Of a stretch of DNA of 64,000 nt, positions 12,396 to 64,000 are shown piece by piece. Source of the DNA: Styela clava (taxonomy: Eukaryota > Chordata > Ascidiacea > Stolidobranchia > Styelidae); NCBI RefSeq assembly GCF_964204865.1, contig NC_135254.1, positions 15,071,001-15,135,000 on the forward strand. Direction: 5' to 3'. The notes beneath the pieces are model-generated. The model was given only the letters and a program-made list of their open reading frames with translations, was not told the DNA's origin and did no database searches. The position numbers and the translations under genes are program-made. Numbering within the stretch: position 1 is the first letter of the stretch; each line of letters starts with the position of its first letter.

Positions 12396-12415
12396 TTTAT
12401 TAAATACTTAATAAA

Positions 12416-27095: not shown

Positions 27096-27163
27096 CAATG
27101 GTGCGGGCAGTCCACAAGAAGCTTGTGCATACATACGTTATATCGGTATTATAGTGTACCAGA

Positions 27164-29205
27164 TGGAGATGTATATATCTATACAGATCCGATACCAAAA
27201 AACTCCGATATTTTGGAAATCCGATATTCCGATACTATGTAATTATTACTTTGGGTGTGCAGGGTTGACGGATTAAAACAATAGTCTGGGAGTGTTATTC
27301 ACGGTGCACATTATTTCGGCTTAAAAAAAAATTTCAGAACGTAAACTAGGTGTTCAGTTAGAAAACTCATAAAGATAGATGGTAAAGTTAATAAATGTTT
27401 ACTTATCCTATCAAACTGTTTAATTGAGTTGCCTATGCGGGATTTTGTGCTAATGATCCGTCGTATTTTACAAATTAAAAATTATTCGATTTATGTTTCT
27501 TCATAATTACCATGTCATATTAAAATGTCAATATAATATTAATATAATAAAATTTGGAAGCGAAAATGCCAAATTAGTTGAGCTAGGTTGACTGAATAAT
27601 AGCTAAATCCGAATCCTGTTCCCTTTTCTACTCGCGGGGATTAGAGTTAACGAGGCAAATACCGCGAACATGATCCCTCTACAGCAGGCCTGGGCAAGTT
27701 GCGGCCCGCGGGCCACATCCGGCCCGCGGCAACGTTTCATCCGGCCCGCGAGCAGGTTTCTAGATGTGGACACTTTCTTTTTAATTTCATATAAAGTATA
27801 CTTTAACTGTGAACAAAATTTTGTTTAGGAAAATGAAAAAGTCGGCAATACCATTCGACTAATTTTTTTTTAAATGACCGATTGTTTTCGTCAGCTCGAG
27901 ATGTTATTTAGACAGTAAACACCTTTACGTCGGTGATTATAATCACAAATTTCCTTCAACCTCCATATATATATATATATATATGTCTTGCATACGGAAC
28001 TGTGAAACCATTGAGAGAAAAGAGTCATTATATAATAATGCTAAAGATAAAAGAGTGCATCTGCAAGCAACCTAAATCGAGATTTCAGAGCGGCAATATA
28101 AAATACTAAAAACTGGACACATACAAGATTGATGTAGAAGGCTTGCGACAGATTAAAAACGCTGTTGTAGAAATTGGAAACTGAAAAATTTCTGGTGCCC
28201 ATGGCACAAAGTAAAGTAAATTCAACCGATTTTCATGGTACTAAATTGAATTTAACTCGGTGTGGTTTTATTGCAGACGTAGGGATTTTTCTATTGGTGA
28301 AATCTGTAAAATAGAGACAAGTCATTGTTGCAAGAACAAATCACATTTGTTGATTTCACGAAATCGCAAAACACGAATAAAAGTAATCTGGCACTTTATT
28401 TCACATTTTTAGATCCGCGGCATGGGGTGGTATTTAAGAGTACTAATGATTATATTTTGCCAAAGCAATCGCGGGTTAAGTTTAAAACAACAAAGCAAGA
28501 CATTTAAATGTGCCCATACCAATGCATTTCAAATATACCCGTATCGCAAAAATAGGTATCAAAATTAAGTATATTCCGGCACTTTATTTAACATTTTTAT
28601 ATACGCAGACGTTGTATTTTAGAGCAGTGCATTCCATACTTTTAAACTCGCAACGCCTCTCAATGCGTTACAATTTTCCACGACCCCTGTTTACGTTAAA
28701 AATGCTATGGTGACAACAAAGTTATATGAATCACGAATGTTTGGCCATCGAAGGCATGGTCTTAATTCCGCATAGTTACTCACTCTTTAGCATTAATGAT
28801 AAAATTCAGCATTGTTTTGCAAGCGTGACGTTTCTCTGATCATATGTATTGTCTCGAAATCGCGATATTTATGTTTTAAACTAGTTTTAATAACTGTGTT
28901 TTAAATAAAAATAAGGGAGTACAATAGTACTTTGTTTTATTTAAATGTGTACTGAAATGCGTTAAAAACGCACAATTGGCTTTACTTAATCCGGCCCGCC
29001 ACTGCATTTGGAATATTCAATGTGGCCCGATAGCAAAAATAATTGCCCAGCCCTGCTCTACGGTCTACACAAAAACAAATTTAGCATCTGTATTCTAATT
29101 TAATTTTTAAAACATGCTGGATCAGATTAAAAAGCTAAATATATCGCAAATATCGGTCTACATTTGGGCGATACCGAAAAAATGACCGATATCGATACAT
29201 TTCTA
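27164..29205. mobile_element. TIR transposon E1, copy in unit 1, interrupted by a hAT element
   Basis: The right end read inward gives TAGAAATGTATCGATATCGG. The left end is degraded (TGGAGATGTATATATC) and flanked by GTACCAGA, against GTACCAGT on the right. Cleaner copies in units 2 and 3 define the element. No transposase is visible. Confidence 0.6.
27685..29055. mobile_element. hAT element H1, 1371 bp, nested in E1 of unit 1
   Basis: The left terminus is CAGGCCTGGGCAAGTT; the right terminus read inward is CAGGGCTGGGCAATTA. The target duplication is CTCTACAG (27677-27684) and CTCTACGG (29056-29063), with one mismatch. Subterminal GGCCCGCGGGCC-type motifs are clustered at the left end. The interior has no long ORF, so it is non-autonomous. 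Confidence 0.85.
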
Positions 29206-30111
29206 GTACCAGTACGACGAGAATTTGGCTGGGCAGTTCGGATTTCTTTCTCTATGGTGTAATATTCAGCAATAGAGCAAGACTAAATAGAGTTTGTCTC
29301 GGTTTGTAGCCCAAACTAATACCTTCAGTGAAATCGAACATTAACAGTATCGAAGTTACGATGAAATGCTATTTAAACGTTGAACGACTGGCGCTTTGTA
29401 ACAGTATTGAAGTTACGGTAAAATGCTATTTGAACCTCAAGTAACTGACGACAGTATTTCAGACTTTCGATTGTTATGATCGACGTAAAGACTTTTTCCA
29501 ATAATTCAAAACAAAAATAAGTTGATGAAACGCATCTAACGGTTAATCAAAAATTCTTGCATGCGCCTCAGTTTTTACACCAAAACTTGTTTTTCTGGGG
29601 AGTTCGAAGCTCGAGTCAAAGTGCAAGTTTTTATATTAATATTACATATGATTAAACAGGACATGCCTTCGATCTAGTCCAACGCAAATTACTGGCGGAA
29701 TCAATTTTTCTCATTCTAATTTCAGATTCTGAATGAAACTTCGTAGTCTAAATTTGAGTAATTACATCATGAATGAAATATTGTTAACTAACTTATTTAG
29801 TAGTTAGCACGTGCTTCACTACCTGTTAACCATATGCGTGTATTGCTTATTAAGCTGTAAAACTTACCAAGCTCTGAGAGCACATGTAGTGTTAAAGCCC
29901 TAATCAGTCACAAAAACACACTTTTTAAAATGATTGTTTTATTTGTCTTTGCATCTTTTTAAATTCTTCGTCACCAATCCAAAGTCAAAAGTTAATATTT
30001 GTCAAGTGTGGATCACAGATATAATAAACTTGTTGAATTTTATCTAATGTTCGAACTTGATTGAAATAATTAACTCTTGACTGGGTGACCAATCACGTGA
30101 TCAAGTTCTGT

Positions 30112-30963
30112 TTACCAATCCAACTGGTTGCACAACCTTAGGTTCCTGTACCTCATTCCTGGCCGCACCTTTTCGATCCAATCCTGGAAAACATCACAGG
30201 TTCTCAATACTTCATTATGGTGGTATTTCAAATGTTAATAAGTGCGACATAGATTGCAAAATATGAAAAAACGCGTAAAATGATATATATATAATATTGT
30301 GAAAAGGGGGAAGAAATACCACTGTCACAAAAACGCCTGACATAATTATATATATAAATAACGCAATGTAACAACGTGTGAGGAGAATATTCTATAGTCG
30401 AAGTAACTTCTCATAATTTGTGGATCACTTAAAAAACATTTAACAAATTCTCGCGATAGAATAGAATAAACCATTGCTTCCAAAATATTTTTCATTAGTA
30501 ATATCGAAACCTGAAACATTGTTCTAAATATTGACACTTAATAAATATTACGTCATGATAATTCATTATATCATAGTTTATACTAACGGTGCTTAATCCC
30601 GATGAACAGTAAAATCCTGTTACACCATAGTATTTTCTTGATGTGTCCACGGAGACGGTTTGGCAACATACATCGAACTGAGGACCGCAGAAATCTGCAC
30701 CGCACGCTTTTCCACGTATACTACAAATAGAGCAGAAAGAAATTTTTTGTTAATAATTGGAATTTCTCAAAAATTCGTAAAACCCCCACAGAAATATTAC
30801 TTTGGCCCGAACATTCATTGTATAAGCAATACCAAAGGGCCATCGGAGGTTTCCACATTAAAATCAATACTGAAAGGGAAAAATCGAGTTGGATTTTAAA
30901 AAAATTTACTTACGCCGCATACGATGCACAGACGCATAAAAGTAATAGAAAGAAGATCTTCAT
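30112..30963 (-). CDS. gene A1: small secreted six-cysteine peptide, three exons (30914-30963, 30588-30720, 30112-30183)
   Basis: 84 aa, reconstructed from splice sites. Exon 1 (50 nt) encodes the signal peptide MKIFFLLLLCVCASYA and ends at a perfect GTAAGT donor. Exon 2 (133 nt) follows CTCTATTTGTAG and carries GKACGADFCGPQFDVCCQ and a later YC; it ends at GTTAGT. Exon 3 (72 nt) follows TGATGTTTTCCAG and ends RYRNLRLCNQLDW then TAA. The frame is consistent (phase 2, then 0). The mature cysteine pattern is C-x4-C-x6-CC-x18-C-x23-C. Upstream on the minus strand is a TATATAAG-type box near 31104-31112; a TTTATT (AATAAA on the minus strand) lies near 29937. I recognise no family. Six cysteines with a central CC recall knottin-like arrangements, but the last loops are too long for a standard cystine knot. 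Defence, signalling or matrix roles are all open. Confidence 0.75.
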
Positions 30964-31009
30964 TTTTCTTTTGTTGATTTTAAAGTTAAGACTCGGCTTA
31001 CTAATCTGA

Positions 31010-32683
31010 ACTGATAATAAGGAAAACAAGGATTTGTGGAATTTAATTTTTCTCTCCCTCTCATTATTAGATGCACAATTTTACTGATCTGATTATCCAC
31101 ATTCTTATATATATATATATTTGTGCAGTGCGGGTATCATGCAATATACAATGTTGTCAAGTGATAATTAACTTGGTTTTCAAAAATAGTAAAATGATTG
31201 AGCATGTTATTTGAAGTTTGCGCAAACTCGAATAAAGACGATGTTTTCGGTCGTTGAGTTTTCGCAGTTGCTTTTAAAAGAACTATCCTTGTGAATGATG
31301 AGCAAAGCAATGAATGAATGTCTTTTTATGGGCTTTCATAATAGGTTTAGCTCCTTTTTTCTCAAATTATTGCGCTGCGAAAAAAAAACTATACACACCA
31401 GCCAAACATGATTCGTTTTCAAGTGTGATTTGGTTTTGATTTTCTAGTCTTTTTACGTTTTGCAACTTTTTTTTTCTAGGATTAGAATGGTTTTATCCGC
31501 TTTTGCTAAAAACAGTTACTTTTTGAGTATTCTACGCCTACTGAACAAGTTGAAATTCATAGGAAACATAACCTGGCTGAAACCAAACAACGGTTGCGAA
31601 AAATCTTAAACAATACCTAGAAATATGACGCGTGAAGCCCAAAATTTTGCTCAAATCAAAGTTGTAATCGCTTAATTAACCTAAAGCGAAAGCGTACTTT
31701 GTATAACTGTTTTATATCGACAGCTAATACTTGTTCAGCACACTATGCAGTTGGATATCCTAAATCTAGTGTCCACGATAATTTTTTTAAGAATTTACAA
31801 CATCATTGTAGCTTTTCACTAATGCACGATTCCTGGATATCCAACCTCATCTTTCGCATACGAAATCAAACTTTAAACACTTGGTCTCAAGCGTGAAAAT
31901 ACTGCACTAATATACTAGTTATTTTTTGTATTCCGTTTCATTAGAAAATCAATATTATGCATGGCCTCGTATGTCTCCCTTATCAGCAGGGATGGTTGAC
32001 TATAAAGGTAGCTAGCCAACTTGAATTTATGAGATGAAAGCCTATTATTCCCAGTGTGAACGTAGCACTTTGTCGTGTTTGTGTTTGTCATTCGGGGTTA
32101 TTCTGTGATTTCTAATGTCATGTACTTCACTGGAATTTCTCTGTACTTCGAATTGCTATATTGCGTGACTGCTTTCTTGATTTTCAAGGAAGACGATGGG
32201 AAGAATAAGTATAGACTTTCGTTAATTGAATTTGTTTTCTTTTTACTTCGAATAATTCCCCACTCGCATTAAATATGTTCAAAAACAAAATGAATGTCAA
32301 CGGGTGCCCTATGAATGCTTTAGTCAGGACCAATTACAAGAATACTAAGATCCATATCACATATTTACCCATGTGTAAAACGTTGTTATTGGGGTGTGGC
32401 AATATAATTACATAATATACCTTCAAGCGGGATGATTTGTACATTTTAACAACGTCCATCTCTTCTTGTATAATTCACTTATTATAAATGGATATGACTA
32501 TTATTTCTGCCTTAAAAATATTTTTATTGTATATATATAATATTGTATTTGGTGAGTAATTTCTTGCTTTGATTGCGTCTTCGCTCACAAAAAACGATCC
32601 CCATAGACCCCACAGAAATTTTCAAAATAATCAAAAATGTAAATAGCCTGCTATATCGAAAAATGCAAACTGTAACCACTGAC
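31010..32683. other. unit 1 spacer upstream of gene A1
   Basis: Promoter side of A1 plus non-coding AT-rich sequence conserved in the other units. Short ORFs here (for example 31699-31896) are intact in units 1 and 3 but broken in unit 2, and show no domain. Confidence 0.4.
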
Positions 32684-33162
32684 TAGGGCGACCCTATTTC
32701 CAAACCCTAAAAAGAGGACACATCGTTTGGTAGAACCATATTTCACCTGTGCCTGATATATACATTATATATCTACTAGATTCTTTAGGGTGAAATATAG
32801 AAGTGACAATAGGCGAAGTGTGCTGCACGACTTAAATTATTCTGTTCATCTTTCATGTGCTAGCATGAGTTTACAGTAGGGAACTGAATTGGATTAAACT
32901 TGCTTACAAACATAAGTTCTAGAAGTAGTCGAACAACTTGGCTTCAATGCATTGCTTGTATTATGTATAATGATAATTACAATTACTTATCTACTTACCT
33001 CAAATTTTCTTAACGCTTCAAAAACTGTTGATTTCTATTTTAAAGATTCAATCCCGTGAAAAGGAGGACATTTTTGCATTTTAGAGCGTTCTCGGAGGAC
33101 GTAAGATTTTTAACGAAAGAAAGAGGACAAATCCTCCAAAAGGAGGTTGTATGGTCACTCTA
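32684..33162. mobile_element. short hAT-like element (TAGGGYGACC ends), unit 1 copy
   Basis: The left end is TAGGGCGACCCTAT; the right end read inward is TAGAGTGACCATAC. A perfect 8-bp duplication CCACTGAC flanks it (32676-32683 and 33163-33170). Both ends contain AGGAGGAC-type motifs. Copies sit at the same place in units 2 and 3, so the insertion predates the duplication. Confidence 0.75.
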
Positions 33163-33639
33163 CCACTGACGATATAGTTAATGAAAAAAGCGATTTTTTT
33201 CACAAGATAAGAAAAGGAATACAATATTCAAAAACTGATCAAGTAACAACATATTAACAAAATGATTCATATATATGTACAATTCGTGTCCAGGAACAAA
33301 CTCAGTAAAAATAACATCAAAGTTTAGATACCATTGTGAGGTAACAAGCAGATAAGGTAACAGGCGAGGTGGGTAACAACATTTTCGATGCCACGGGCTC
33401 TCGTTTTTACCTTCTTGTACAAGGGGTACAATATTTAACCACAGTACGTATGCGACTCACACAAAAAATGTGGCTGAGCAGCAAGTTACAAAAATTGAAA
33501 CAATTTGATATAAAACAGCTCATTTTCAGGTGAAATATGGGATCTCGAACGAAACAGTAGGAATTTGAAAATGGTCTCGATTAGCGATGTAACACGTGTT
33601 CACCAAAGCTAGTGTTTCCGAGACTAATATAGAGGAAAT

Positions 33640-34690
33640 GGTAATTTGGAATACACCCCTTCTTTAATTAAAATTGTAATATTGCGTGACTTCTTTTGAC
33701 GTTCGCAGAAGTCGGAAGGAGTATTATAAATTCAGACATTTGTCAAAGGTTAAACCCGTTTTCTTCAAATAATTCCCACACCCATTCGTGTCAAAACCTA
33801 GAAATAGCAAATTAATAACGTTTGCAATAACTGTTAATTTAAAAATAATCCCAAGAAAATCCGAAATTTTTGAAGAATTTTTTGTAGAAGTTTTATGCAA
33901 TGAGATTGTTATTTTCTTGTTACTCACACATATCGTCAGCCCACGCCGAATAATACATATTCAAAACAAGCCTGGCCATGTGGTGAATATGACCTCTAGA
34001 TAGCAATTACAAAACGAATTTCGAAGAACGAAAAGGGGCGCAACGGCGCTAGTCACGTGCCCTTAATTCTATAATCTTGGTGTCACAATTTATCGATTTC
34101 AATAATCCTAATTTGATTACTCTTATATAATTCATGCAAACGATCTGCCAATGAAAAGTTGGTCGGAGAATGAGCAAACAGACTCAATTCCGGAGTAAAC
34201 TAAGAGTTGAATTAAAAACCATGCTGTTCTCGATATAATACGTTTATACGTAATAATATAAAAATATTCTGTATGGTTTCACCGTGATCTTTTTATTTTA
34301 GCATGTCATTTCTATTTTAGTATGCCAGTGTAGTTTAGTATACACTCGTGGTCTATGAGCGGACCAAGGTATGCCCGCAACCCATATGGCGATCGGACTT
34401 CATACAAGATCATTTTCAATTTATTAGGTCTCTGCCTCATATTATGTCCATCATAAGATTGTTGCATTGGGTTATAACCAGTGATGAGCTGGAAAAATCG
34501 TAAGAACCGAAACGCAGCTCATTCTTGAAAATGTACATTGCGACCGTGGATGCTCACAAATATTTTTGTCTTCCTAAGATAGAGCCAAGCTGGTGACACC
34601 TTATCAATATTTAAAATAAGCATAAAAAATAATATAATGGTATGGTATAAGACGAAATATTTTGGGGTCAAAGGTCAGACAAACATCCAA
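33640..34690. repeat. internal duplication of the unit, left half
   Basis: This stretch is a diverged copy of 36130-37340: both start near TGGAATACACCC, share TTCGCAGAAGTCGGAAGG, CCGTGATC/CCATGATC TTTTTATTTTAGCATGTC, and GCCCGCAACCCATATGGCGA. The two halves are separated by the hAT-like element at 34703-36054. Confidence 0.7.
33724..33979 (-). other. possible two-exon small peptide (33928-33979, 33724-33797)
   Basis: On the minus strand MARLVLNMYYSAWADDM leads to a GTGAGT donor (phase 1). An acceptor TTTGCTATTTCTAG leads in matching phase to a segment with GCGNYLKKTGLTFDKC and a stop, giving 41 aa. The second exon is intact in all three units, but the donor is weaker in unit 2 and the intron is partly deleted in unit 3. 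No family is recognised; this could be chance. Confidence 0.2.
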
Positions 34691-34702
34691 TACCCTATAT
34701 AC

Positions 34703-36054
34703 CAGACCTGCCCAACCTTTTTCCTCTCTCGGGCCGCTTTCACATGACGAAATTCGTTGCGGGCCGCAAATGCTTGTACCAAACTTCAATACCAGCTAAT
34801 TCCCGATTCCGGTATAATTTACATGATACGTAAAATGCAAGTTTATTAACAAAAAATCAATCAGGTCAATAATTATTTACTGGTTACTGATTAGGAATGG
34901 CGAAATATTCAAATATCAAGTCGAATATTAGAATAGCAGTTTACTATTCGATATCTGGTAGCATGGGGTGTGGGCATGACACTCGCGGGTCGCCGAATTA
35001 AAGAATCAATCATTACACAACACACTTGCGGATTTCTGACGACCACACAAGAATCCACACACAGTTTTCACTAACAAACATAGACGTCAGAATTGAATGT
35101 TATATTTTTGGTCTTATAGTGTTTTTATTCATTCATTTTCAGTGGCTATGATACTGTCTCAATGTTTAAATAAAGCATAATGTGCGCCCATGTCGCCGGA
35201 ATATCAAGTTTTGGTGGAGAACCGTTTTGTAAAATTCGAAGCATCAATACAAGTATTTATTGAAGTAACATTAAAAAGATTTCTGGACGAGTATATATTT
35301 ATATTTACTAATTTGAATATGTAGCAATGCCATTAAGTCAATTTTATCAGAATTATTGAGGGAAACACAGGCTTGTCGAAGGGAGTGGCATTCCCATGGG
35401 ATGGGACAGCACACATTTGTATTTCCCATGGGTCACGTGGGACGCGAAAACCGTATGATTTTCGATGGAAATGATGGTAAAACATTTCGTTATAGACTTC
35501 GTGTCCATATATTTGAGCATAGCTCTCTTGTTAGTTATAAAGAGCAAAATATATTCAACATTAACAGTATACTTCGTGATGGGGCTGATGGACACATGCA
35601 TAATAGTTATGGATATAAAGTTAACGAAGTCCGTAGATTTTGTTGTTTTGCATGTCTATTCGTAAATGTAGTCCTACTTAGTGGACGTTAAACCTAATTT
35701 TAACAATTTTTATTGAATTTTATTCCAATGGGAATCCCAGGCATAATTGCTATCGGATGGTAATGGGGCAGAAAAATATGTCCAATGGACAGTACCACGG
35801 AAATTGTTGACATTTTATTTTGCGTTGGCGATAAAGACGATCAAAGCCGACACGAAAGAAAGCAATCAGAATGAAATTAATTTGCAAATTTCGGCTTCAA
35901 AGTCATTCTTATGTTTGCGCTCAGCGTCACACCAAAATAACGAAACATACTTAAACCTATATATAACATAGTAAAAATTTAAAAAGTCTCCTTACAAACT
36001 TTAAAGGTCAGGTCGCAAAATACAGTCTAGCGGGCCGCGGGTTGGGCAGCCTTG
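34703..36054. mobile_element. hAT-like element H2, unit 1 copy
   Basis: The left end is CAGACCTGCCCAACC; the right end read inward is CAAGGCTGCCCAACC. The duplication is worn here (CTATATAC against CGTTATAT) but clearer in unit 2. GCGGCCCGC motifs lie inside the right end. The interior holds clusters of CCCATGGGATGGGA-like palindromic motifs near 35385-35430 and 35725-35775, probably another nested repeat. No transposase is seen. Confidence 0.7.
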
Positions 36055-36129
36055 CGTTATATTGAAAAGAGTAAATTAAAATGAAACAGCTACATTTTAG
36101 GTTTTTGTAGTTGAACAAATCTGAACTCA

Positions 36130-37340
36130 TTAAGCAGATGGGGCTTTGGAATACACCCGTTATTTAATAAAAATTGTAAAATTGCGTGACTTCTTTCAAC
36201 GTTCGCAGAAGTCGGAAGGTATATTGAAAATTGCGCCATTTGTCGAAGGTTAAACCCGTTTTATTCAAGTAATTTCCACAGCATTTCGTGTCAAAACGTA
36301 AAATGGCAAATTAGTAACGTTTGCAATGACTGTTCATTCAAAAACAGTTTCAAAGAAAATCGTGGAATAGCGAAATTTTCGAAGATTTTTTTCGTAGAAG
36401 TTTCGTGCATCGAGACTGCTCATTTCCCTTGTTAATTGCACATACCGTCAGCCTACGGTGAATAATACATATTCAAAACAAGCAATTACAAAACGCACCT
36501 CGAAGAAAGAATAGGGACGCAACGGCTCTTATTCACGTGACCTATAATCTTGGTGTCACAATTCATCGTTTTCAATAATCTTAATTTGGTTACTCCAATA
36601 TAAATCATGCGAACAATCTGCAAATGAAAAGGTAATGAGATAATAAGCATAACATACTAAATTCTGGAGTAAAATAAGAATTTAAATTATGCTGTTCTCG
36701 ATATAATACATTTATACGTAATAATATAACATATTCTTTATGGTTTTACCATGATCTTTTTATTTTAGCATGTCTATTCATTTCAGTGCAGTTTCGAACG
36801 CAGTGTATAGTATTTTTATCGAAAACAACTACACAGTCTTTTCGAAATCGTGGGCGCCGTTCAAATAAGAAAGTGGATGATAGCAGTCGATGCCCGCAAC
36901 CCATATGGCGATTAGCCTTCATATAAGATAATTTTCTATTTATTACGTCTATGCTTTAATATCTTTCAGTATTAAATTTTAGCAATGTATTTCGCTGTTG
37001 TGCCTCATATCAAGTTCAACATTAGCCTGATATCAGTCTTTGGGTCTTACCCAGTGATGAGCTGGAAAATGTGTTATGCCCGGGGCGGCACCTCATTCGC
37101 GGAAATGTATTATATTTACAACACGTCCGCGAACACTAACAGAAATTTTTGACTTTTAGATCCGATGAAATATATATATCTGTGTAAAATGACAAGTATA
37201 TTTATAGCAATTAAATATAATATTAGTTCAAAAATACTTGCGATTATTTTATTAAAATTTAAAATAAGCTTGAGAAATATTCTAATAGTAAGGTATAAAA
37301 TGAAATTTTCTGGGTCAAAAGGTCGGGCAAACATCAATTT
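36130..37340. repeat. internal duplication of the unit, right half
   Basis: Diverged partner of 33640-34690. It includes the exon-like stretch after TTTTTATTTTAG near 36768 whose reading frame is shifted here but open in unit 2. Confidence 0.7.
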
Positions 37341-37341
37341 C

Positions 37342-37528
37342 TAGGGCTGGGAATTTCAGGGAAAACACTTCAATCATTAACCGGGTCAAAGTAACCGGTT
37401 AACCGCAGCGTGACGTTTGACATAATAATTTGTTGGTGGTTTTATCCTGGTATCGCTCAAAATTATTCACGAATGGAGACAGTTAGTGATATATAAAACG
37501 GGTAACCGATTAACCATTCCCAGCCCTA
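37342..37528. mobile_element. short inverted-repeat element (TAGGGCTGGGAAT ends), unit 1 copy
   Basis: TAGGGCTGGGAAT at 37342 is matched by ATTCCCAGCCCTA ending at 37528. The interior contains ACCGGTTAACCG. Target duplication was not resolved. The unit 3 copy is 63068-63254; the unit 2 copy is rearranged and has lost its right end. Confidence 0.65.
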
Positions 37529-37737
37529 TCCATTTCACGTTACGCATGTGCTAATTATTTGTTTGCTGAGATGTAGAATCAATTTATGAAGTAACAAAAC
37601 GTAAATTATTAAGTGAACAGGAGAAACTTAACTTTCTATGGCATACTTTTATTTCAACAACAGGAACGTAAATGCAATATAATAGTTAACAACCGGAACG
37701 GCGTTAAATGAAAAAGCTACTATGAAAAACATCGGTG

Positions 37738-37971
37738 CTATTTTTTAACCAGAGATATCCTTGGACGCCATAATTTAACATTTTGTCTTAATTTGACCTC
37801 GTGGTAACGACAAAATATTATTATTATGATTGTTGCTGTTTGTAATTGATCACAAACATAACTGTGTCTGTTCTTATTACTAACTCCCACCCCCGATAGA
37901 GCACCATCACCAAATGTCCTCATATTGCATTTTTTGTTAAAGAAATGAAATTTATCATCACTTTCAATCAT
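37738..37971 (-). other. ORF conserved in all three units, function unknown
   Basis: A 77-codon minus-strand frame (starting MIESDDKFHFF) is preserved in unit 3 (63464-63697) and nearly so in unit 2 (49936-50187, 83 codons). It follows gene B downstream. There is no signal peptide or recognisable motif, and the units are so similar overall that conservation alone does not show coding. Confidence 0.2.
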
Positions 37972-38353
37972 AATAGTCGACTGTTTACAAGTTGATTAAT
38001 TAAAAATAAACAACAAATTCTGGTTATAATTCTTGTATTTCATTGGAATCAACAGTATGCACCCAAAGTCAAAATACGATATAATTATTGAAACACATAA
38101 TACACTTTTAAATGTTCTAGTCAATCTTTAATAGCTGTTCGTTCTTTAGATTTCTTTATTTCTTCGTCTTAACGTCGACATTTCCAAACATAGAATAATA
38201 ACAATAACTGGTGGAGAACAGAAACTTACTTATTATATGCAACATTGTATTTTGAGACAATAAAAAATAATTTTCCTTGGCAATTAGTTTATTACTGATG
38301 AGTGGTATCAAATTAAGACTCTGATTGCAATGATAATGTTGATCACTATTGAA

Positions 38354-39147
38354 TTACGAAGTAAAACGAATGTTGCAGAGCCTCAAGTAGTGCTTGTTTG
38401 TTCTGTAGCCCTGTAAAAAAGAATTATAGTCAGAATACAAAACAGGTATTTTTACAAAATATAGTTTAAGGGGAAAATTGTAATATCTTGTCAGAAGCTT
38501 ACAAAATTTCAATAACACGATTTTCATTGAAAACTTTTGCTCACTAATTGGCTGTTAAAGGTAGTGAATATTTGGTATAGCGGTCACATCTCAATTTCTG
38601 GTAACCAAGTGGTGCTGGTAAAGAACTAATGGAAGATTATTTTACTTTGGCGGAATGTAAAGCAAAATGTGCTTATAATATATATATATATATACGCTGC
38701 CATAACATGAAACGTATATTTTAAGATCAATATACTAACATTATCGTTTCTGTATCCACAGAACGGGGGGTCGGTTTGTCCAGGATCGTCAAGATATATA
38801 TCTTGACAGCAAGCATCGTGCGCAGAGTCACATAGTTTATTTCCACAGAATCTACCTCCGATTTGCCTAAAAAATTTCGAATTTAAACTGATCAATCATA
38901 CTTTGAAAACATTGTATGTAACCAATGCAATTATTTGTAATTCAAAAATAAGTACGTATCTCTATTATTTATACGGTCAATAATAATATCGAATATTCGT
39001 CTTGTCTAAAATATTTTTCATATTGTATCCATTTATATATTTGTTCAGTGTTATTATGTTAAATCCTCTTATAATAAACAATTGACATTAATATACTTAC
39101 GCTGCCGCAAGGCTTATGCAAAGAAGAGAGATGAGTAGAATCTTCAT
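38354..39147 (-). CDS. gene B1: small secreted six-cysteine peptide, three exons (39101-39147, 38740-38866, 38354-38410)
   Basis: 76 aa, reconstructed from splice sites and paralogous to gene A. Exon 1 (47 nt) encodes the signal peptide MKILLISLLCISLAA and ends at GTAAGT. Exon 2 (127 nt) follows AATTTTTTAG and carries GGRFCGNKLCDSAHDACCQD and PPFCGY; it ends at GTTAGT. Exon 3 (57 nt) follows TTCTTTTTTACAG and ends NKHYLRLCNIRFTS then TAA. Intron phases (2, 0) are the same as in gene A. The cysteine pattern is C-x4-C-x6-CC-x15-C-x17-C. TATAAAAA on the minus strand lies about 115 bp upstream (near 39261-39268), and a minus-strand AATAAA lies near 38287. The family is unrecognised; secretion is well supported, function is not. 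Confidence 0.75.
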
Positions 39148-40408: not shown

Positions 40409-40538
40409 GTATATATATATTTATATATTGGTATTTGATCCGTGAATAGTAAACCGCTGAATATTTATATATCAGACATTCGCAATACTTGTTTGCCGCT
40501 TGGTCATTATCGATATACCGGTACGTCTAGGCGGCCTG

Positions 40539-40587
40539 GATGCTACCCGCCAATGGTGCGCCAATGATGCTACCCGCCAATGGTGCG
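40539..40587. repeat. 22-bp direct repeat at the unit 1/unit 2 junction
   Basis: GATGCTACCCGCCAATGGTGCG occurs at 40539-40560 and 40566-40587. The same arrangement is at the unit 2/unit 3 junction (52776-52824). It is absent at the start of unit 1, where only the final CAATGGTGCGGGCAG is shared. Confidence 0.85.
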
Positions 40588-40649
40588 GGCAGTCCGCAAG
40601 AAGCTTGTGCATACATACATACGTTATATCGGTATTTTAGTTTACCAGT

Positions 40650-52645: not shown

Positions 52646-53420
52646 GTATATATATATTTATATATTGGTATTTGATCCGTGAATAGTAAACCGCTGAATA
52701 TTTATATATCAGACATTCGCAATACTTGTTTGCCGCTTGGTCATTATCGATATACCGGTACGTCTAGGCGGCCTGGATGCTACCCGCCAATGGTGCGCCA
52801 ATGATGCTACCCGCCAATGGTGCGGGCAGTCCGCAAGAAGCTTGTGCATACATACATACGTTATATCGGTATTGTAGTTTACCAGTTAGAAATGTATATA
52901 TCGATGCAGATCCGATACCAAAAAAAAAAATCCGATATTTTGAAAATCCGATATTCTGATAATATATAATTATTACTCTAGGTGTGCAGGGTTGACGGAT
53001 TAAAACAATAGTCTGGGAGTATTTATTATTCACGTTGTACATTATTTCGGCTTGGAAAAAATATTCCAAAACGTCCGCAATAGAGGGTAAGGTAAATGTA
53101 TGTTCACTTATCCTATCAAACTCATACATTGAGTTGCCTATGCCGGATTTTGTGCTGATATATATATATATATATATATATATACCGTCGTATTTTACAC
53201 ATTAAATTTTATTTGATTTATATGTTTCTTTATAACAACCATGTTATGTTAAAATGTCAATATAAAATACAATAATAATATAATAAAATTTGGCAACGAA
53301 AATGCCAAATTGGTTGAGCTAGGTGGACTGATAAATAGCTAAATCCGAATCCTCTTCCCTTTTCTACTCGCGGGGCTTAGAGTTAACGAGGCAAATACCG
53401 TGAACATGATCCCTCTACAG

Positions 53421-54656
53421 CAGGGGTGGGCAACTTCTCTATTCGGCGGGCCAGATGTAGGAAAATGAAGTCCTCGGCGGGCCGGATTATTACAAAAATA
53501 CTTCGGTATCCAATCTTTGTTAAATGCTCGACACTCTCTTTCTGTCAACTTTACGTTTCTTGGGATATTCCATAGTTAATAAAACTTTATATAAAATCCA
53601 ATTTCTAAAATCTATTTATATTTAGAATATAAATATAACTGATACCAGTAGTGGGGTATGTTCACAACGTTCCTGCTTTGACCTTATATTATTTGTTTGA
53701 CAAGTGTGCTAACGCAATTGTTTGTTCACTAAGACAATGTTTCCCAAACTGTGTTCCGTCTCCGAAGTGTTCCGTGGAAAAGAAATCGAAAATACGTCCA
53801 AAATGATCGTCATAGCGATCTATGGAACGTGAAGTACCGGTAGTCGCCCAACTGACCGTTCGATATCGCGTCACCGTCGGCCTAAAGCGGACTAGCTATA
53901 GGGTAGGGTAGTGGCATTTTCGTTAACCGTCGGCCTAGCTATTTGACTGTTTAAGTTCGTTATCAAGTTTACAATAATCTTTTAGATTGTCATAGCCAAA
54001 TGAGTAGGTCTAAAGAATGAAGGCAAAAGGTCAAATTTTCTTCCTTCATCTCTGCCTGGTTTTACTTTGAAATGCTGAAAAAATTACAAAGCTGCAGGTC
54101 TGCAGCTCATGAAATTGCGACAAGTACTTCTATCTCCATTAGACGCAAACTGAGAGGCAAACACTAAGTAATGGAAAGTAAACGACATATAATTGTAAAA
54201 TGGATGAATTGATTAATATACACAGCATTTAAATTATGAAACAATAAAAAATTTGGTATATATAATAAATGCAATATGTAGAATATTCAATCATATTTTA
54301 GGTATATTTAACATAATTCTGTTAGTTTTCGCAGCGCATTTGGCAACTCGTCACGACAAACCCATTAGGAACCGCTACATTACACAATTTTTCTTTTTCA
54401 ATTTTACCCTTACATTTTTTGGTGTTCCACGAGGCGAGATAAAAGTGTAAGTGTTCCGTTTGGGAAACGCTGCCCTAAGACAATTGGTTATTTCCCCAGG
54501 TTGCACTGACAGTGCGGTGAGAGTATAGCAATCGGCAACTTTCAGGAATGATGCGTCGGACCACATTACAGAGTGTGGTTGGATACAGTCAGCGGGCCGG
54601 TCAAAATCTCGTCGCGGGCCGGAACCGGCCCGCGGGCCGTATGTTGCCCACCCCTG
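53421..54656. mobile_element. hAT element H3, 1236 bp, in unit 3
   Basis: The termini are CAGGGGTGGGCAAC (left) and the same sequence read from the right end. There is a perfect target duplication CTCTACAG (53413-53420 and 54657-54664). GGCCCGCGGGCC motifs cluster at the right end, the reverse of H1 in unit 1. About 490 bp remain when the nested element is removed. No transposase is seen. Confidence 0.9.
53735..54472. mobile_element. hAT-like element nested within H3, 738 bp
   Basis: The left end is CAATGTTTCCCAAAC; the right end read inward is CAGCGTTTCCCAAAC. The flanks CACTAAGA (53727-53734) and CCCTAAGA (54473-54480) match at 7 of 8 bases. Non-autonomous. Confidence 0.8.
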
Positions 54657-55778
54657 CTCTACAGTCTATACAAAAAATAATTCAGCATCTGTATTTTAAC
54701 TTAATTTTTAAAACATGCTGGATCAGATTAAAAAGCGGAATATATCGCAAATATCGGTCTACATTTGGGCAATACCGAAAAATGACCGATATCGATACAT
54801 TTCTACTACCAGTACGACGAGAATTTGACTGGGCAGTTCGTATTTCTTTCTCTATGGTACTCAGTAATATTCAGCAATAGAGCAAGACTAAATAGAGTCT
54901 GTCTCGGTTTGTAGCCCTAACTAATACCTTTAGTGAAATCGAACATTAACAGTATTGAAGTTACGATGAAATGCTATTTAAACGTTGAACGACTGGCGCT
55001 TTGTAACAGTATTGAAGTTACGGTAAAAGGCTATTTGAACCTCAAATAACTGACACTTTTTGACAGTATTTCAGACTTTCGATTGTTATGATCGACGTAA
55101 AGACTTTTTCCAGTAATTCAAAACAACATTAAGTTGATGAAACGCATCTAATGGTTTATCAAAAATTCTTGCATGCTCCTCAGTTTTTACACCAAAACTT
55201 GTTTTTCTGGGGAGTTCGATGCTCGAGTCAAAGTGCAAATTTTATCTGGAATTTCGTCGACTCATTTTACTAACTGTCGCGAAGTTTTTATTATATATAT
55301 TAATATTACATACGATTAAACAGGACATGCCTTCGATCTAGTCTAACGCAAATTACTGGCGGAATCAATTTTTCTCATTCTAATTTCAGATTCTGAATGA
55401 AACTTCGTAGTCTGAATTTGAGTAATTACATCATGAATGAAATATTGTTAACTAACTTATTTAGTAGTTAGCACGTGCTTCACTACCTGTCAACCATATG
55501 TGTGTATTGCTTATTGAGCTGTAAAACTTACCATGCTCTGAGAGTACATGTAGTGTTAAAGCCCTAATCAGTCACAAAAACACACTTTTTAAAATTATTG
55601 TTTTATTTGTCTTTGCATCTTTTTAAATTCTTCGTCACCAATCCAAAGTCAAAAGTTAATATTTGTCAAGTGTGGATCACAGATATAATAAACTTGTTAA
55701 ATTTTATCTAATGTTCGAACTTGATTGAAATAATAATTAACTCTTGACTGGGTGACCAATCACGTGAACAAGTTCTGT

Positions 55779-56618
55779 TTACCAATCCAACTGGTTGCAC
55801 AACCTTAGGTTCCTGTACCTCATTCCTGGCCGCACCTTTTCGAGCCATTCCTGGAAAACATCACAGGTTCTCAATACTTCATTATGGTGGTATTCCAAAT
55901 GTTAATAAGTGCGACATAGATTGCAAAATATGAAAAAACGCGTAAAATGATATATATATAATATTGTGAAAAGGAGGAAGAAATACCACTGTCACAAAAA
56001 CGCCTGACATAATTATATAAATAACGCAATGTAACAACGTGTGAGGAGAATATTCTATAGTCGAAGTAACTTTTCATAATTTGTGGCTCACTTAAAAAAC
56101 ATTTAACAAATTCTCGCGATAGAATAGAATAATCCATTGCTTCCAAAACATTTTTCATTAGTAATATCGAAACCTGAAACATTCTTCTAAATATTGACAC
56201 TGATAAAATATTACGCCATGATAATTTATTATATCATAGTTTATACTAACGGTGCTTAATCCCGATGAACAGTAAAATCCTGTTACACCATAATATTTTC
56301 TTGATGTGTCCACGGAGACGGTTTGGCAACATACATCAAACTGAGGACCGCAGAAATCTTCACCGCACGCTTTTCCACGTATACTACAAATAGAGCAGGA
56401 AGGAATTTTTTGTTAATAATTGGAATTTTTCAAAAGTTCGTAAAACCCCCACAAATTGGCCCGAACATTCATTGTATAAGCAATACCAAAGGGCCATCGG
56501 AGGTTTCCACATTAAATTCAATACTGAACGGGAAAAATCGAGTTGGATTTAAAATAAAATTTACTTACGCCGCATACGATGCACAGACGCATAAAAGTAA
56601 TAGAAAGAAGATCTTCAT
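55779..56618 (-). CDS. gene A3: small secreted six-cysteine peptide (56569-56618, 56251-56383, 55779-55850)
   Basis: 84-aa third copy of gene A. The signal peptide exon is identical to A1. Differences from A1: Ala to Glu in the first cysteine loop, two silent changes in exon 2, and Asp to Glu plus Ile to Leu at the start of exon 3. All splice sites, the six cysteines and the TAA are intact. A TATATATAAG-like box lies upstream near 56757. Confidence 0.75.
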
Positions 56619-58357
56619 TTTTCTTTTGTTGATTTTAAAGTTAAGACTCGGCTTACTAATCTGAACTGATAATAAGGAAAACAAGGATTTGTAGAATTTA
56701 ATTTTTCTCTCCCTCTCATTATTAGATGCACAATTTTACTGATCTGATTATCCACATTCTTATATATATATATATATTTGTGCAGTGCGGGTATCATGCA
56801 ATATACAATGTTGTCAAGTGATAATTAACTTGGTTTTCAAAAATGATAACATGATTGAGTATGTTATTTGAAATTTGCGCAAACTCGAATAAAGACTTGA
56901 TGTTTTCGATCGTTGAGTTTTCGCAGTTCCTTTTAAAAGAACTATCCTGTGAATGATGAGCAAGGCAATGAATGAATGTCTTTTTATGGGCTTCCATGAC
57001 AGGTTTAGCTCCCCTTTTTTCTCAAAAATTGCGCTGCGAAAAAAAGACTCTACACACCAGCCAAACATGATTCGTCGTCATTTTATCATTTTCAAGCGTG
57101 ATTTAGTTTTGATTTTCCAGTCTCTCTACGTTTTGCATTTTTTTTCTTGGATTGGAATGGTTTTATCCGCTTTTGCAAAAAACGTTTTGAGTATTCTCCG
57201 CCTACTGAACGAGTTGAAAATCATACGAAGCATAAGCTCACTGAAACCAAACAACGGTTGCGAAAAATCTTAAACAATACCTAGAAATATGATGCGTGAA
57301 GCTTAAAATTTTGCTCAAATCAAAGTTGTAATCGCTTACTTAACCTAAAGCGAAAGCGTACTTTGTATAACTGTTTTATATCGACAGCTAATACTTGTTC
57401 AGCACACTATGCAGTTGGATATCCTAAATCTAGTGTCCACGATAATTGTTTTAAGAATTTACAACATCATTGTAGCTTTTCACTAATGCACGATTTCTGG
57501 ATATCCAACCTCATCTTTCGCACACGAAATCAAACTTTAAACACTTGGTCTCAAGCGTGAAAATACTGCACTAATATCCTAGTTAATTTTTGTATTCCGT
57601 TTCATTAGAAAATCAATATTATGCATGGCCTCGTATGTCTCCCTTATCAGCAGGGATGGTTGACTATGAAGGTAGCTAGCCTACTTGAATTTATGAGATG
57701 AAAGCCTATTATTCCCAGTGTGAACGTAGCACTTTGTCGTTTTTGTGTTTGTCATTCGGGGTTATTCTGTGATTTCTAATGTCATGTACTTCACTGAAAT
57801 TTCTCTGTACTTCGAATTGCTATATTGCGTGTGTGCTTTACTTGATTTTCAAGGAAGTCGATGGGAAGAATAAGTATAGACTTTCGTTAATTGAATTTGT
57901 TTTCTTTTTACTTCGAATAATTCCCCACTCGCATTAAATATGTTCGAAAACAAAATGAATGTCAACGGGTGCACTATGAATGCTTTAGTCAGGACCAATT
58001 ACAAGAATACTAAGATCCATATCACATATTTACTCATGTGTGAAACGTTGTTATTAGGGTGTGGTAATATAATTATATAATATACCTTCAAGCGGGATGA
58101 TTTGTACATTTTAACAATGTCCATCTCTTCTTGTATAATTCACTTCGAATTATAAATGGATATGACTATTATTTCTGCCTTAAAAATATTTTTATTGTAT
58201 ATATATATATATATTATTATATTTGGTGCGCAATTTCCAGCTTTGATGGCGTCTTCGCTCACAAAAAACGATCCCCATAGACCCCACAGCAATTTTCAAA
58301 ATTATCGAAAATGTAAATAGCCTGCTATATCGAAAAATACGAACTGTAAGCACTGAC

Positions 58358-58839
58358 TAGGGTGACCCTATTCCCAAACCCTAAAAGGAGGACACATCGT
58401 TTGGTAGCACCATATTTCACCTGTGCCTGATTTATACATTATATATCTACTATATTTTTTAAGGTGAAATATAGAAGTAACAATAGGCGAAGTGTGCTGC
58501 AGGACTTAAATTATTCTGTTCATCTTTCATGTGCCATGAATTTACAGTAGGAAACTGAATTGGATTAAACTTGCTTACAAACATAGGTTCTAGAAGTAGT
58601 CGAACAACTTGGCTTCAATGCATTGCTTGTATTATGTATAATGATAATTACAGTTATCTACTTACCTCAAATTTTCTTAACGCTTCAAAAACTGTTGATT
58701 ATATCATACAAAAATTTTAAAGATTCAACCCCGTGAAAAAGAGGACATTTTTGCATTTTAGAGCGTTCTCGGAGGACGTAAGATTTTTAACGAAAAAAAG
58801 AGGACAAATCCTCCAAAATCAGGACGTATGGTCACTCTA
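58358..58839. mobile_element. short hAT-like element (TAGGGTGACC ends), unit 3 copy
   Basis: Same insertion as in units 1 and 2. The right flank carries a small tandem expansion of CTACCACT. Confidence 0.7.
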
Positions 58840-60372
58840 CCACTCTACCACTCTACCAAAGCGATTTTTTTCACAAGATTAGAAAAGGAATACAATATTC
58901 AAAAACTGATCAAGTAACAACATATTAACAAAATGATTCATATATATGTACAATTCGTGTCCAGGAACAAACTCAGTAAAAATAACATCAAAGTTTAGAT
59001 ACCATTGTGAGGTAACAAGCAGGTAAGGTAACAGGCAAGGTGGGTGACAACATTTTCGATGCCACGGGCTCTCGTTTTTACCTTCTTGTACAAGGGGTAC
59101 AATATTTAACCACAGTACGTATGCGACTCACACAAAAGATGTGGCTGAGCAGCAAGTTACAAAAATTGAAACAATGGTCATCGACGACGCATAAAAAGAG
59201 TAAATTAATATAAAACAGCTAATTTTTAGGTGAAATATGGGATCTCATACGAAACAGAAGGAATTTTAAAATGGCCTCGATTAGCGATGTAACACGTGTT
59301 CACCAAAGCTAGTGTTTCCGAGACTAATATAGAGGAAATGGTAATTTGGAATACACCCCTTCTTTAATTAAAATTGTAATATTGCGTGACTTCTTTTGAC
59401 GTTCGCAGAAGTCGGAAGGAGTATTATAAATTCAGACATTTGTCAAAGGTTGAACCCGTTCTCTTCAAATAATTCCCACACCCATTCGTGTCAAAACCTA
59501 GAAATAGCAAATTAATAACGTTTGCAATAACTGTTAATTTAAAAATAATCCCAAGAAAATCCGAAATTTTTGAAGAAGTTATTTTCTTGTTACTCACACA
59601 TATCGTCAGCCCACGCCGAATAATACATATTCAAAACAAGCCTGGCCATGTGGTGAATATGACCTCTTGATAGCAATTACAAAACGAATTTCGAAGAACG
59701 AAAAGGGGCGCAACGGCGCTAGTCACGTGCCCTTAATTCTATAATCTTGGTGTCACAATTTATCGATTTCAATAATCCTAATTTGGTTACTCTTATATAA
59801 TTCATGCAAACGATCTGCCAATGAAAAGTTGGTCGGAGAATGAGCAAACAGACTCAATTCCGGAGTAAAATAAGAGTTGAATTAAAAACCATGCTGTTCT
59901 CGATATAATACGTTTATACGTAATAATATAAAAATATTCTGTATGGTTTCACCGTGATCTTTTTATTTTAGCATGTCATTTTTATTTTAGTATGCTAGTG
60001 TAGTTTAGTATACACTCGTGGTCTATGAGCGGACCAAGGTATGCCCGCAACCCATATAGCGATCGGCCTTCATACAAGATCATTTTCAATTTATTAGGTC
60101 TCTGCCTAATATTATGTTCAACATAAGATTGTTGCATTGGGTTATAACCAGTGATGAGCTGGAAAAATCTTAAGAACCGAAACGCACCTCATTCTTGAAA
60201 ATGTACATTGCGACCGTGGATGCTCACAAATATTTTTGTCTTCCTAAGATAGAGCCAAGCTGGTGACACCTTATCAATATTTAAAATAAGCATAAAAAAT
60301 AATATAATGGTATGGTATAAGACGAAATATTTTGGGGTCAAAGGTCAGACAAACATCCAATACCCTATATAC

Positions 60373-61736
60373 CAGACCTGCCCAACCTTTTTCCTCTCTC
60401 GGGCCGCTTTCACATGACGAAATTCGTTGCGGGCCTCAAATGCTTGTACCAAACTTCAATACCAGCTAATTACCGATTCCGGTATAATTTACATGATACG
60501 TAAAATGCAAGTTTATTAACAAAAAATCAATCAGGTCAATAATTATTTACTGGTTACTGATTAGGAATGGCGAAATATTCAAATATCAAGTCGAATATTA
60601 GAATAGCAGTTTACTATTCGATATCTGGTAGCATGGGGTGTGGACATGACACTCGCGGGTCGCCGAATTAAAGAATCAATCATTACACAACACACTTGCG
60701 GATTTCTGACGACCACACAAGAATCCACACACAGTTTTCACTAACAAACATAGACGTCAGAATTGAATGTTATATTTGGGTTATAGTGTTTTTATTCATT
60801 CATTTTCAGTGGCTATGATACTGTCTCAATGTTTAAATAAAGCATAATGTGCGCCCATGTCGCCGGAATATCAAGTTTTGGTGGAGAACAGTTTTGTAAA
60901 ATTCGAAGCATCAATACAAGTATTTATTGAAGTAACATTAAAAAGATTTCTGGACGAGTATATATATATATATTTATATTTACTAATTTGAATATGTAGC
61001 AATGCCATTAAGTCAATTTTATCAGAATTATTGAGGGAAACACAGGCTTGTCGAAGGGAGTGGCATTCCCATGGGATTGGACAGCACACATTTGTATTTC
61101 CCATGGGTCACGTGGGACGCGAAAACCGTATGATTTTCGATGGAAATGATAACATTTCGTTATAGACTTCGTGTCCATATATTTGAGCATAGCTCTCTTG
61201 TTAGCTATAAAGAGCAAAATATATTCAACATTAACAGTATACTTCGTGATGGGGCTGATAGACACATGTATAATAGTTATGAATATAAAGTTAACGAAGT
61301 CCGTAGATTTTGTTGTTTTGCATGTCTATTCGTACATGTAGTCCTACTTAGTGGACGTTGAACCTAATTTTAACAATTTTTATTGAATTTTATTCCAATG
61401 GGAATCCCATGGGATGGGACAGGCATAATTGCTATGGGATGGGAATGGGGCAGAAAAATATGTCCAATGGACAGTACCACGGAAATTGTTGACTTTTTAT
61501 TTCACGTTGGCGATAAAGACGATCAAAGCCGACACGAAAGAAAGCAATCAGAATGAAATTAATTTGCAAATTTAGGCTTTAAAGTCATTCTAATAATTGC
61601 GCTCAGCGTCACACCCAAATAACAAAATATACTTAAACCTATATATAACATAGTAAAAATTTAAAAAGTCTCCTTACAAACTTTAAAGGACAGGTCGCCA
61701 AATACAGTCTAGCGGGACGCGGGTTGGGCAGCCTTG
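60373..61736. mobile_element. hAT-like element H2, unit 3 copy
   Basis: Same insertion as 34703-36054 and 46869-48245, with CTATATAC on the left and CGTTATAC on the right. Confidence 0.7.
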
Positions 61737-63067
61737 CGTTATACTCAAAAGAGTAAATTAAAATGAAACAGCTACATTTTAGGTTTTTGTAGTTGAACAA
61801 ATCTGAACTCATTAAGCAGATGGGGCTTTGGAATACACCCGTTATTTAATTGAAATTGTGATATTGCGTGACTTCTTTCAACGTTCGCAGAAGTCGGAAG
61901 GAATATTAAAAATTGCGCCATTTGTCGAAGGTTAAACCCGTTTTATTCAAGTAATTTCCACAGCATTTCGTGTCAAAACGTAAAATGGCAAATTAGTAAC
62001 GTTTGCAATGACTGTTCATTCAAAAACAGTTTTCAAGAAAATCCTGGAATAGCGAAATTTTCGACGAATAATTTCGTAAAAATTTTGTGCATTGAGACTG
62101 CTCATTTCCCTTGTTATTCGCACATATCGTCAGCCTACGGTAAAGAATACATATTCAAAACATGCCTGATCATATAGTAAATATGACCTCTTCTACATTT
62201 AGTGATGGTTGCAATTAGAAAACTCATCTCGAGGAAAGAATAGGGACGCAACGGTTCTTATTCACGTGACCTATAATCTTGGTGTCACAATTTTATCGTT
62301 TTCAATAATCTTACTTCGGTTACTCCAATATAAATCATGAAAACAATCTGCAAATGAAAAGGTAATGGGATAATAGGCATAACATACTAAATTCCGGAGT
62401 AAAATAAGAATTGAAATTATGTTGCTCTCGATAAACGACATTTATACGTAATAATATAACATATTCTTTATGGTTTTACCATGATCTTTTTATTTTAGCA
62501 TGTCTATTCATTTCAGTGCAGTTTTGAACGCAGCGTATAGTATTTTTATCGAAAACAACTACACAGCCTTTTCGAAAACGTGGGCGCCGTTCAAATAAGA
62601 AAGTGGATGATAGCAGTCGATGCCCGCAACCCATATGGCGATCAGCCTTCATATAAGATAATTTTCTATTTATTACGTCTATGCCTCAATATCTTTTAGT
62701 ATTAAATTTTGGCAATGTATTTCGCTGTTGTGCCTCATATCAAGTTCAACATTAGCCTGATATCAGTCTTTGGGTCTTACCCAGTGATGAGCTGGAAAAT
62801 GTGTTATGCCCGGGGCGGCACCTCATTCGCGGAAATGTATTATATTTACAACACGTCCGCGAACACTAACAGAAATTTTTGACTTTTAGATCCGAAGAAA
62901 TATATCTGTGTAAAATGACAAGTATATTCATAGCAATTAAATATAATATTAGTTCAAAAATACTTGCGATTATTTTATTAAAATATAAAATAAGCTTGAG
63001 AAATATTCTAATAGTAAGGTATAAAATGAAATTTTCTGGGTCAAAAGGTCGGGCAAACATCAATTTC

Positions 63068-63254
63068 TAGGGCTGGGAATTTCAGGGAAAACACTTCAAT
63101 CATTAACCGGGTCAAAGTAACCGGTTAACCGCAGCGTGACGTTTGACATAATAATTTGTTGGTGGTTTTATCCTTGTATCGCTCAAAATTATTCACGAAT
63201 GGAGACAGTTAGTGGTATATAAAAAGGGTAACCGATTAACCATTCCCAGCCCTA
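63068..63254. mobile_element. short inverted-repeat element (TAGGGCTGGGAAT ends), unit 3 copy
   Basis: Both ends are present and the interior is nearly the same as the unit 1 copy. Unit 2 differs, so units 1 and 3 are more alike here. Confidence 0.65.
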
Positions 63255-64000
63255 TCCATTACACGTTACGCATGTGCTAATTATTTGTTTGCTGAGATGT
63301 AGAATCAATTTATGAAGTAACAAAACGTAAATTATTAAGTGTACAGGAGAAACTTAACTTTCTATGGCATACTTTTATTTCAACAACAGGAACGTAAATG
63401 CAATAAAATAGTTAACAACCGGAACGGCGTTAAATGAAAAAGCTACTATGAAAAACATCGGTGCTATTTTTTAACCAGAGATATCCTTGGACGCCATAAT
63501 TTAACATTTTGTCTTAATTTGACCTCGTGGTAACGACAAAATATTATTATTATGATTGTTGCTGTTTGTAATTGATCACAAACATAACTGTGTCTGTTCT
63601 TATTACTAACTCCCACCCCCGATAGAGCACCATCACCAAATGTCCTCATATTGCATTTTTTGTTAAAGAAATGAAATTTATCATCACTTTCAATCATAAT
63701 AGTCGACTGTTTACAAGTTGATTAATTAAAAATAAACAACAAATTCTGGTTATAATTCTTGTATTTCATTGGAATCAACAGTATGCACCCAAAGTCAAAA
63801 TACGATATAATTATTGAAACACATAATACACTTTTAAATGTTCTAGTCAATCTTTAATAGCTGTTCGTTCTTTAGATTTCTTTATTTCTTCGTCTTAACG
63901 TCGACATTTCCAAACATAGAATAATAACAATAACTGGTGGAGAACAGAAACTTACTTATTATATGCAACATTGTATTTTGAGACAATAAAAAATGATTTT

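Follow-up and report, generated by a model that had tools for sequence, protein, structure and literature searches.

A stretch of 64,000 nucleotides from the ascidian Styela clava (contig NC_135254.1, here C5, positions C5:15071001-15135000; hereafter the window) carries in its right part, at 27096-64000, a direct tandem array of three units of 12-13.5 kilobases (kb), in which each unit encodes two small, secreted-looking peptides, A and B, with six mature cysteines (Cys). Positions given without a contig name are those of the window, and the assembly searched comprised 376,610,584 bases in 379 contigs. The array is real and probably represents a new orphan family. Its kind is a common one, as many animals have tandem families of secreted Cys-rich peptides that are restricted to their lineage. 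In our preferred reading, to which we assign a probability of about 0.35, an old duplication would have produced A and B, the segment holding both would later have been duplicated in tandem to give a six-gene array, and the genes would encode secreted, disulphide-stabilised defence effectors.

The comparison of the window with itself by BLAST showed three long pairs, namely 29043-38274 with 54644-64000 (94.0% identity), 29057-37434 with 41214-49608 (91.8%) and 37526-41212 with 49758-53418 (96.5%). The three direct repeats proposed by an earlier sequence-only reading of this DNA were thus recovered, with units beginning at 27096, 40578 and 52815. Unit 1 (27096-40577; 13,482 bases) holds genes A1 and B1 and an inserted element of 1.37 kb, and unit 2 (40578-52814; 12,237 bases) holds A2 and B2. 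Unit 3 (52815-64000) is cut by the window edge and reaches at least C5:15136563; it holds A3 and, beyond the window, B3. The similarity between units runs to that point as one block, and a short further stretch resembling a unit end is visible beyond it. A 401-base piece of A1 matched three places in the assembly, all of them in the window. The array in the assembly is therefore small and finite, consisting of three units and six genes in the order A1 B1 A2 B2 A3 B3. In the three-way alignment of the units, divergence measured over 500-base segments ranged from 0.2% to 13.5%, one segment that spans two different insertions not being counted. Within the unit, about 690 aligned bases are repeated at 78% identity (33645-34321 versus 36145-36787), and the same repeat is present in units 2 and 3, so that it predates the array.

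Two haplotypes assembled end to end could mimic such an array. Haplotypes might show the divergence of roughly 3-8% and the differing inserted elements that are seen between the units, and ascidians can be very heterozygous. However, the first 800 residues of the dynein-2 heavy chain encoded beside the array match only one place in the assembly (one match from five candidates, with no other at E<=1e-5). Moreover, a diploid genome with a single unit could supply no more than two distinct ones, and at least one real duplication is needed to account for three. We consider an assembly artefact very unlikely.

All the genes lie on the minus strand and are divided into three exons. In A1 (30112-30963), the exon at 30963-30914 encodes the predicted signal peptide, the exon at 30720-30588 five of the six mature Cys and the exon at 30183-30112 the sixth Cys and the stop. 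A2 (42279-43126; exons 43126-43077, 42883-42751 and 42350-42279) and A3 (55779-56618; exons 56618-56569, 56383-56251 and 55850-55779) have the same length as A1, 84 amino acids. B1 (38354-39147; exons 39147-39101, 38866-38740 and 38410-38354) and B2 (50570-51381; exons 51381-51335, 51077-50951 and 50626-50570) encode 76 amino acids each, while B3, just past the window edge at C5:15135080-15135892, has three exons, donors that match those of the other copies, acceptors ending in AG and an intact stop. With B3 completing the third pair, the claim of two minus-strand three-exon genes per repeat holds for all three repeats. The exons measure 50, 133 and 72 bases in A and 47, 127 and 57 bases in B; the introns are of 185-193 and 400-404 bases in A and of 234-257 and 324-329 bases in the window copies of B.

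The five copies in the window share GTAAGT as the first donor, GTTAGT as the second, AG acceptors, intron phases 2 and 0 and an intact stop, and the longer donor strings GTAAGTA and GTTAGTATA are common to A and B. All six copies, B3 included, are intact, with every splice site present. The donors, phases and stops ascribed earlier to five copies stood, whereas the count of six Cys applies to the mature part only, the predicted signal peptide adding two Cys in A and one in B. The exact pattern C-x4-C-x6-CC occurred five times in the six-frame translation of the window, of which only two occurrences are independent because copies of a gene repeat the same match; in 40 first-order random sequences of 64 kb its mean number was 0.075 and the maximum 1.

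Possible transcription signals were found by consensus match only. A TATA-like box, TATATAAG, lies at 31104-31111 (minus strand), at -148 from the ATG of A1; the same box stands at -148 in A2, and TATATATA at -150 in A3. The corresponding box of B1, TATAAAAA, at 39260-39267 (minus strand; -120), recurs in B3, while B2 has lost one base there and no longer matches the consensus. AATAAA polyadenylation-like signals follow the stop of A1 after 169 bases (29938-29943, minus strand), those of A2 and A3 after 169 and 172 bases and that of B1 after 61 bases (38288-38293, minus strand), with another at 194; B2 and B3 also have one 61 bases after the stop.

The local alignment of the A1 and B1 proteins reached a score of 95, which none of 5000 shuffles attained (shuffle maximum 52). 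When the Cys were held fixed, the score of the mature part was reached by 12 of 5000 shuffles. Both A and B have C-x4-C-x6-CC and, in exon 3, LRLCN, and in both the fifth Cys stands six residues ahead of the phase-0 intron. A register set by hand gave 40 residue pairs, of which 21 are identical; among the 20 that allow a choice of codon, 11 use different codons. Based on this protein comparison, A and B are judged to be old paralogs, and the simplest account would be that coding function was retained across their long divergence. The amplified family of small, secreted-looking six-Cys peptides described in the sequence-only reading is supported, with two paralogs.

The Cys spacing is C-x4-C-x6-CC-x15/18-C-x17/23-C, with loops of 4, 6, 0, 18 and 23 residues in A and 4, 6, 0, 15 and 17 in B, and the Cys span 57 residues in A and 48 in B. 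Exon 1 is nearly coextensive with the predicted signal peptide; its hydrophobic stretch has a mean Kyte-Doolittle value of 2.93-2.96, followed by a cleavage-like site with small residues as judged by eye. We infer that the signal peptide is cleaved near the exon 1/2 junction, which would release peptides of 60-68 residues with three disulphides. With the cleavage site taken by eye, mature A has 68 residues, an isoelectric point of 8.3-8.9 and a net charge of +1.7 to +3.7, and mature B has 60 residues, an isoelectric point of 6.9 and no charge (-0.1). Neither A nor B has a C-terminal Gly for amidation, and the sole dibasic pair found by eye is an RK in A, inside an inter-Cys loop. The AlphaFold prediction for exon 2 alone (five of the six Cys, five alignment rows) had four strands, a mean predicted local distance difference test score (pLDDT) of 75 and a predicted template modelling score of 0.38, the five models spanning pLDDT values of 39-75, so that little can be read from this prediction.

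In the inhibitor cystine knot the Cys order is C-C-CC-C-C, with loops of 3-7, 3-8, 0-7, 1-4 and 4-13 residues and disulphides 1-4, 2-5 and 3-6. All six array copies have this order, and their first three loops (4, 6, 0) fall within these ranges. However, loops 4 and 5 (15-18 and 17-23) exceed the classical ranges, and neither Pfam nor PDB yielded a sequence match. On Cys spacing, the insulin, CC chemokine, granulin, defensin, ShK, EGF and Kunitz families were also dropped as candidates.

The sequence-only reading had recognised no family, and the searches found none. No relative was found in Pfam, NCBIfam or the PDB sequences, where the best PDB row was an acetyltransferase at E 0.29. In a set of 5.8 billion proteins two alignment searches produced 9 and 2 candidates, of which none reached E<=10; among viral contigs none of 54 pattern stretches was confirmed, nor was any of 119 candidates in prokaryote genomes. 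The searches of the large sets rely on exact five-residue words or close DNA patterns, and genes split into exons are expected to be under-predicted, so that missing relatives are weak evidence. A Pfam scan of 84 open reading frames (ORFs) of unit 2 and of 25368-27095 returned six families (best E 0.0083), which we take as chance. The tunicate literature was searched at title level, and no title among those listed concerned such an array.

The genome-wide search with exon 2 of B recovered the three array copies and C2:15507135-15507200 (L010; E 1.7; 22 residues, open). This place has C-x4-C-x6-C and a partial motif, but it has T at the fourth Cys and no fifth Cys before a stop; no piece resembling exon 1 or exon 3 was seen nearby. 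The match is most likely due to chance, the alternative being a decayed relative. The exon 2 query of A likewise recovered the three array copies, together with C8:5218590-5218688 (E 0.05, with two stops), which was rejected because it is a copy of a repeat found in all three units. This repeat, transposon-like by eye, lies near 36000, 48200 and 61700, and its DNA on contig C8 (L014) is 79-92% identical. As neither query picked up the other paralog, relatives that have diverged as far as A and B would have escaped the genome-wide search. A relaxed Cys pattern, applied to the window and 100 kb on each side, gave eight matches: the six array genes, C5:15150985 and C5:15136815, the latter just right of the array. 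No piece resembling exon 1 or 3 was seen at these two places, and no further gene was found in the window and its 100-kb flanks.

According to the preferred reading, the peptides, stabilised by their disulphides, would serve defence outside the cell, at epithelia or in blood cells, which is its least certain step. A fixed N-terminal scaffold would be combined with fast-changing C-terminal loops, and copy number would set dose and variety. We favour extracellular host defence over any other single role, with a probability of about one in three, a reproductive role or a signalling, structural or inhibitor role being nearly as likely. The choice was based on the antibacterial six-Cys peptides described from one ascidian in the relevant passages of PMC13208793, on the cationic mature A and on the concentration of change in the C-terminal loops.

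That ascidian is Synoicum turgens, from which these passages describe six-Cys antibacterial peptides, the turgencins and St-CRPs (PMC13208793). Turgencins A and B resemble A and B of the array in their ascidian origin and six Cys, which in the turgencins form three disulphides, but as described there they have 35-36 residues, a C-terminal amide and no adjacent Cys, which sets them apart from peptides of 60-68 residues with a CC pair and no C-terminal Gly (PMC13208793). St-CRP-1 and -2, also with six Cys and neutral like B of the array, are described as having only 18-19 residues, the order CC-C-C-CC and a C-terminal amide, unlike C-C-CC-C-C over 57 (A) or 48 (B) residues (PMC13208793).

Substitutions among the array copies were counted by hand by parsimony, over about 377 nonsynonymous and 103 synonymous sites. 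The nonsynonymous and synonymous changes numbered 6 and 2 in A and 5 and 1 in B (total 11 and 3). Of the 11 nonsynonymous changes, ten are found in the part that follows the CC pair, where 55% of the codons lie (binomial P 0.014), and none is found in the predicted signal peptide (P 0.08), both tests having been picked after seeing the data. In exon 2 of B3 (L004 495-512) four base changes, all nonsynonymous, are packed in codons 42-47; they may reflect a single mutation of several bases, gene conversion by a paralog that was not seen, or selection. On these small numbers, the C-terminal loop changes suit relaxed or diversifying change. A much more specific version of the host-defence reading appears quite improbable: a tunicate-restricted family with its own disulphide fold and a fixed C-x4-C-x6-CC scaffold, its C-terminal loops under diversifying selection, forming a small, copy-number-variable host-defence set about 25 kb from an interleukin-17 (IL-17) gene.

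Several observations weigh against the preferred reading. Mature B is uncharged (-0.1), which counts mildly against defence, as most antimicrobial peptides, unlike B, are charged. No NF-kB-like site was found within 1 kb upstream of the six copies; with eight such sites in 64 kb, less than one would be expected there, and the absence says little. No sequence feature favours immunity over reproduction or signalling, and none of the analyses separated the immune, venom-like and gamete roles raised in the sequence-only reading. Between A and B, exon 3 alone is a weak match (its score was reached by 59 of 5000 shuffles), and the exon DNA is no more alike than the introns: among 200 random sequences, 38, 34 and 22 reached the scores of exons 1-3, 173 and 7 those of introns 1 and 2, and 26 and 86 those of the 5' and 3' flanks. 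The exon DNA does not stand out, and the A-B signal therefore resides in the protein. The ratio of 11 to 3 equals the neutral expectation (P(X>=11 of 14)=0.65); a nonsynonymous to synonymous ratio of 0.2 fits poorly (P 0.0065), and 0.5 is not disfavoured (P 0.21), so that coding constraint inside the array is not demonstrated by these counts. Coding sequences differ among copies by 0.9-2.75%, which is not below the 0.5-3.4% of the introns, and the conservation of exons is not clearly higher. Gene-bearing segments are among the less diverged parts of the unit alignment (1.0-1.8% at 42078-42577 and 0.4-1.6% at 50078-51077), but gene-free segments are equally low (1.0-1.6% at 46578-47577), and the low values are thus no clear sign of constraint.

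The neutral-like counts and coding differences of about 1-3%, no less than in introns, would also be expected of unexpressed or decaying copies whose exons remain open only through recent duplication. However, none of the six copies has lost its reading frame or a splice site, and the Cys pattern, intron phases and donor strings are common to A and B although their DNA aligns poorly, so that both lineages were kept coding before the recent duplications. Unexpressed or decaying copies seem improbable to us.

No arms race is required to explain why copies change in a neutral-like way or why B is uncharged, and both features would suit secreted signalling, structural or inhibitor peptides (hormone-like, of tunic or mucus, or protease inhibitors) that were duplicated for dose only. 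For Hydra it is reported that a role in development can fall to small secreted proteins restricted to one taxon, and that family resembles A and B, by description only, in being small, secreted and taxonomically restricted (PMC2586386). The missing amidation Gly, the position of the RK pair and the lack of any match to a Pfam inhibitor family speak against such a role, which we hold as a tentative alternative. Small amplified families of secreted Cys-rich peptides with labile loops would also fit reproduction, and the clustering of changes in the C-terminal loops could then come from divergence driven by fertilisation, the genes encoding gamete or seminal peptides made in gonad or follicle cells. 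However, the passages of a review of ascidian fertilisation that bear on this mention CiUrabin, which is a CRISP, together with VC57, but no such peptide (PMC8849226). A reproductive role is in our view somewhat less likely than host defence, which remains the reading we prefer.

To the left of the array, a dynein-2 heavy chain is encoded at 12432-25367 (plus strand) as one unbroken frame 4311 codons long, with a Pfam DYNC2H1 AAA domain (E 2e-38); the alignment with the solved structure of DYNC2H1 (chain 6rla) covers residues 7-4310. Among the 120 matches listed for residues 1-1200, the best species-assigned ones came from Clavelina lepadiformis (57%) and Ciona savignyi (57-58%), and the other species-assigned ones, from hemichordates and corals to vertebrates, reached 48% or less. 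These matches place the host among the ascidians, where the sequence-only reading had gone no further than metazoan. Given the unbroken frame and the single match in the assembly, the only copy of the dynein-2 heavy chain gene seems to be intronless, as if a retrocopy had replaced its parent; no paper on an intronless dynein-2 heavy chain was found in the literature listed. Two relatives at 67-71% identity are equally long proteins on contigs of 14.5 and 18.6 kb, which could be transcripts.

The IL-17 gene lies at 4433-5259 (plus strand). Its frame at 4999-5259 matches Pfam IL17 (E 1.3e-14), and the frame from 4433 has a signal-like stretch by eye and may be exon 1. Of the 83 ORFs in 2768-12431, 82 were scanned against Pfam, with IL17 and two weak families as the outcome. 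A frame at 4-1149 (minus strand) matches DUF4371 (E 6.3e-18) and is presumably transposase-like; the DNA of 4-1696 recurs inverted, at 95%, at L006 7562-9242. A 29-base minisatellite has 23.5 copies at 7832-8524 and 4.3 more at 8968-9091, some 440 bases on. In the array itself, units 1 (27685-29055) and 3 (53421-54656) carry at the same spot two mostly different elements, with limits set by eye, which have CAGG..TGGGCAA-type inverted ends and flanking CTCTAC(A/G)G copies and which we take to be hAT elements. At the corresponding spot in unit 2, at about 41212, a short doubled remnant, CTCTACGTCTACAG, resembles an excision footprint.

Small secreted peptides whose genes are split by introns elude gene finding based on ORFs, and this locus provides a clean case, with exact junctions, in a close relative of the vertebrates. 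If the peptides are antimicrobial, they would represent a new scaffold from ascidians, which the passages on Synoicum turgens already present as a source of disulphide-rich antibacterial peptides (PMC13208793).

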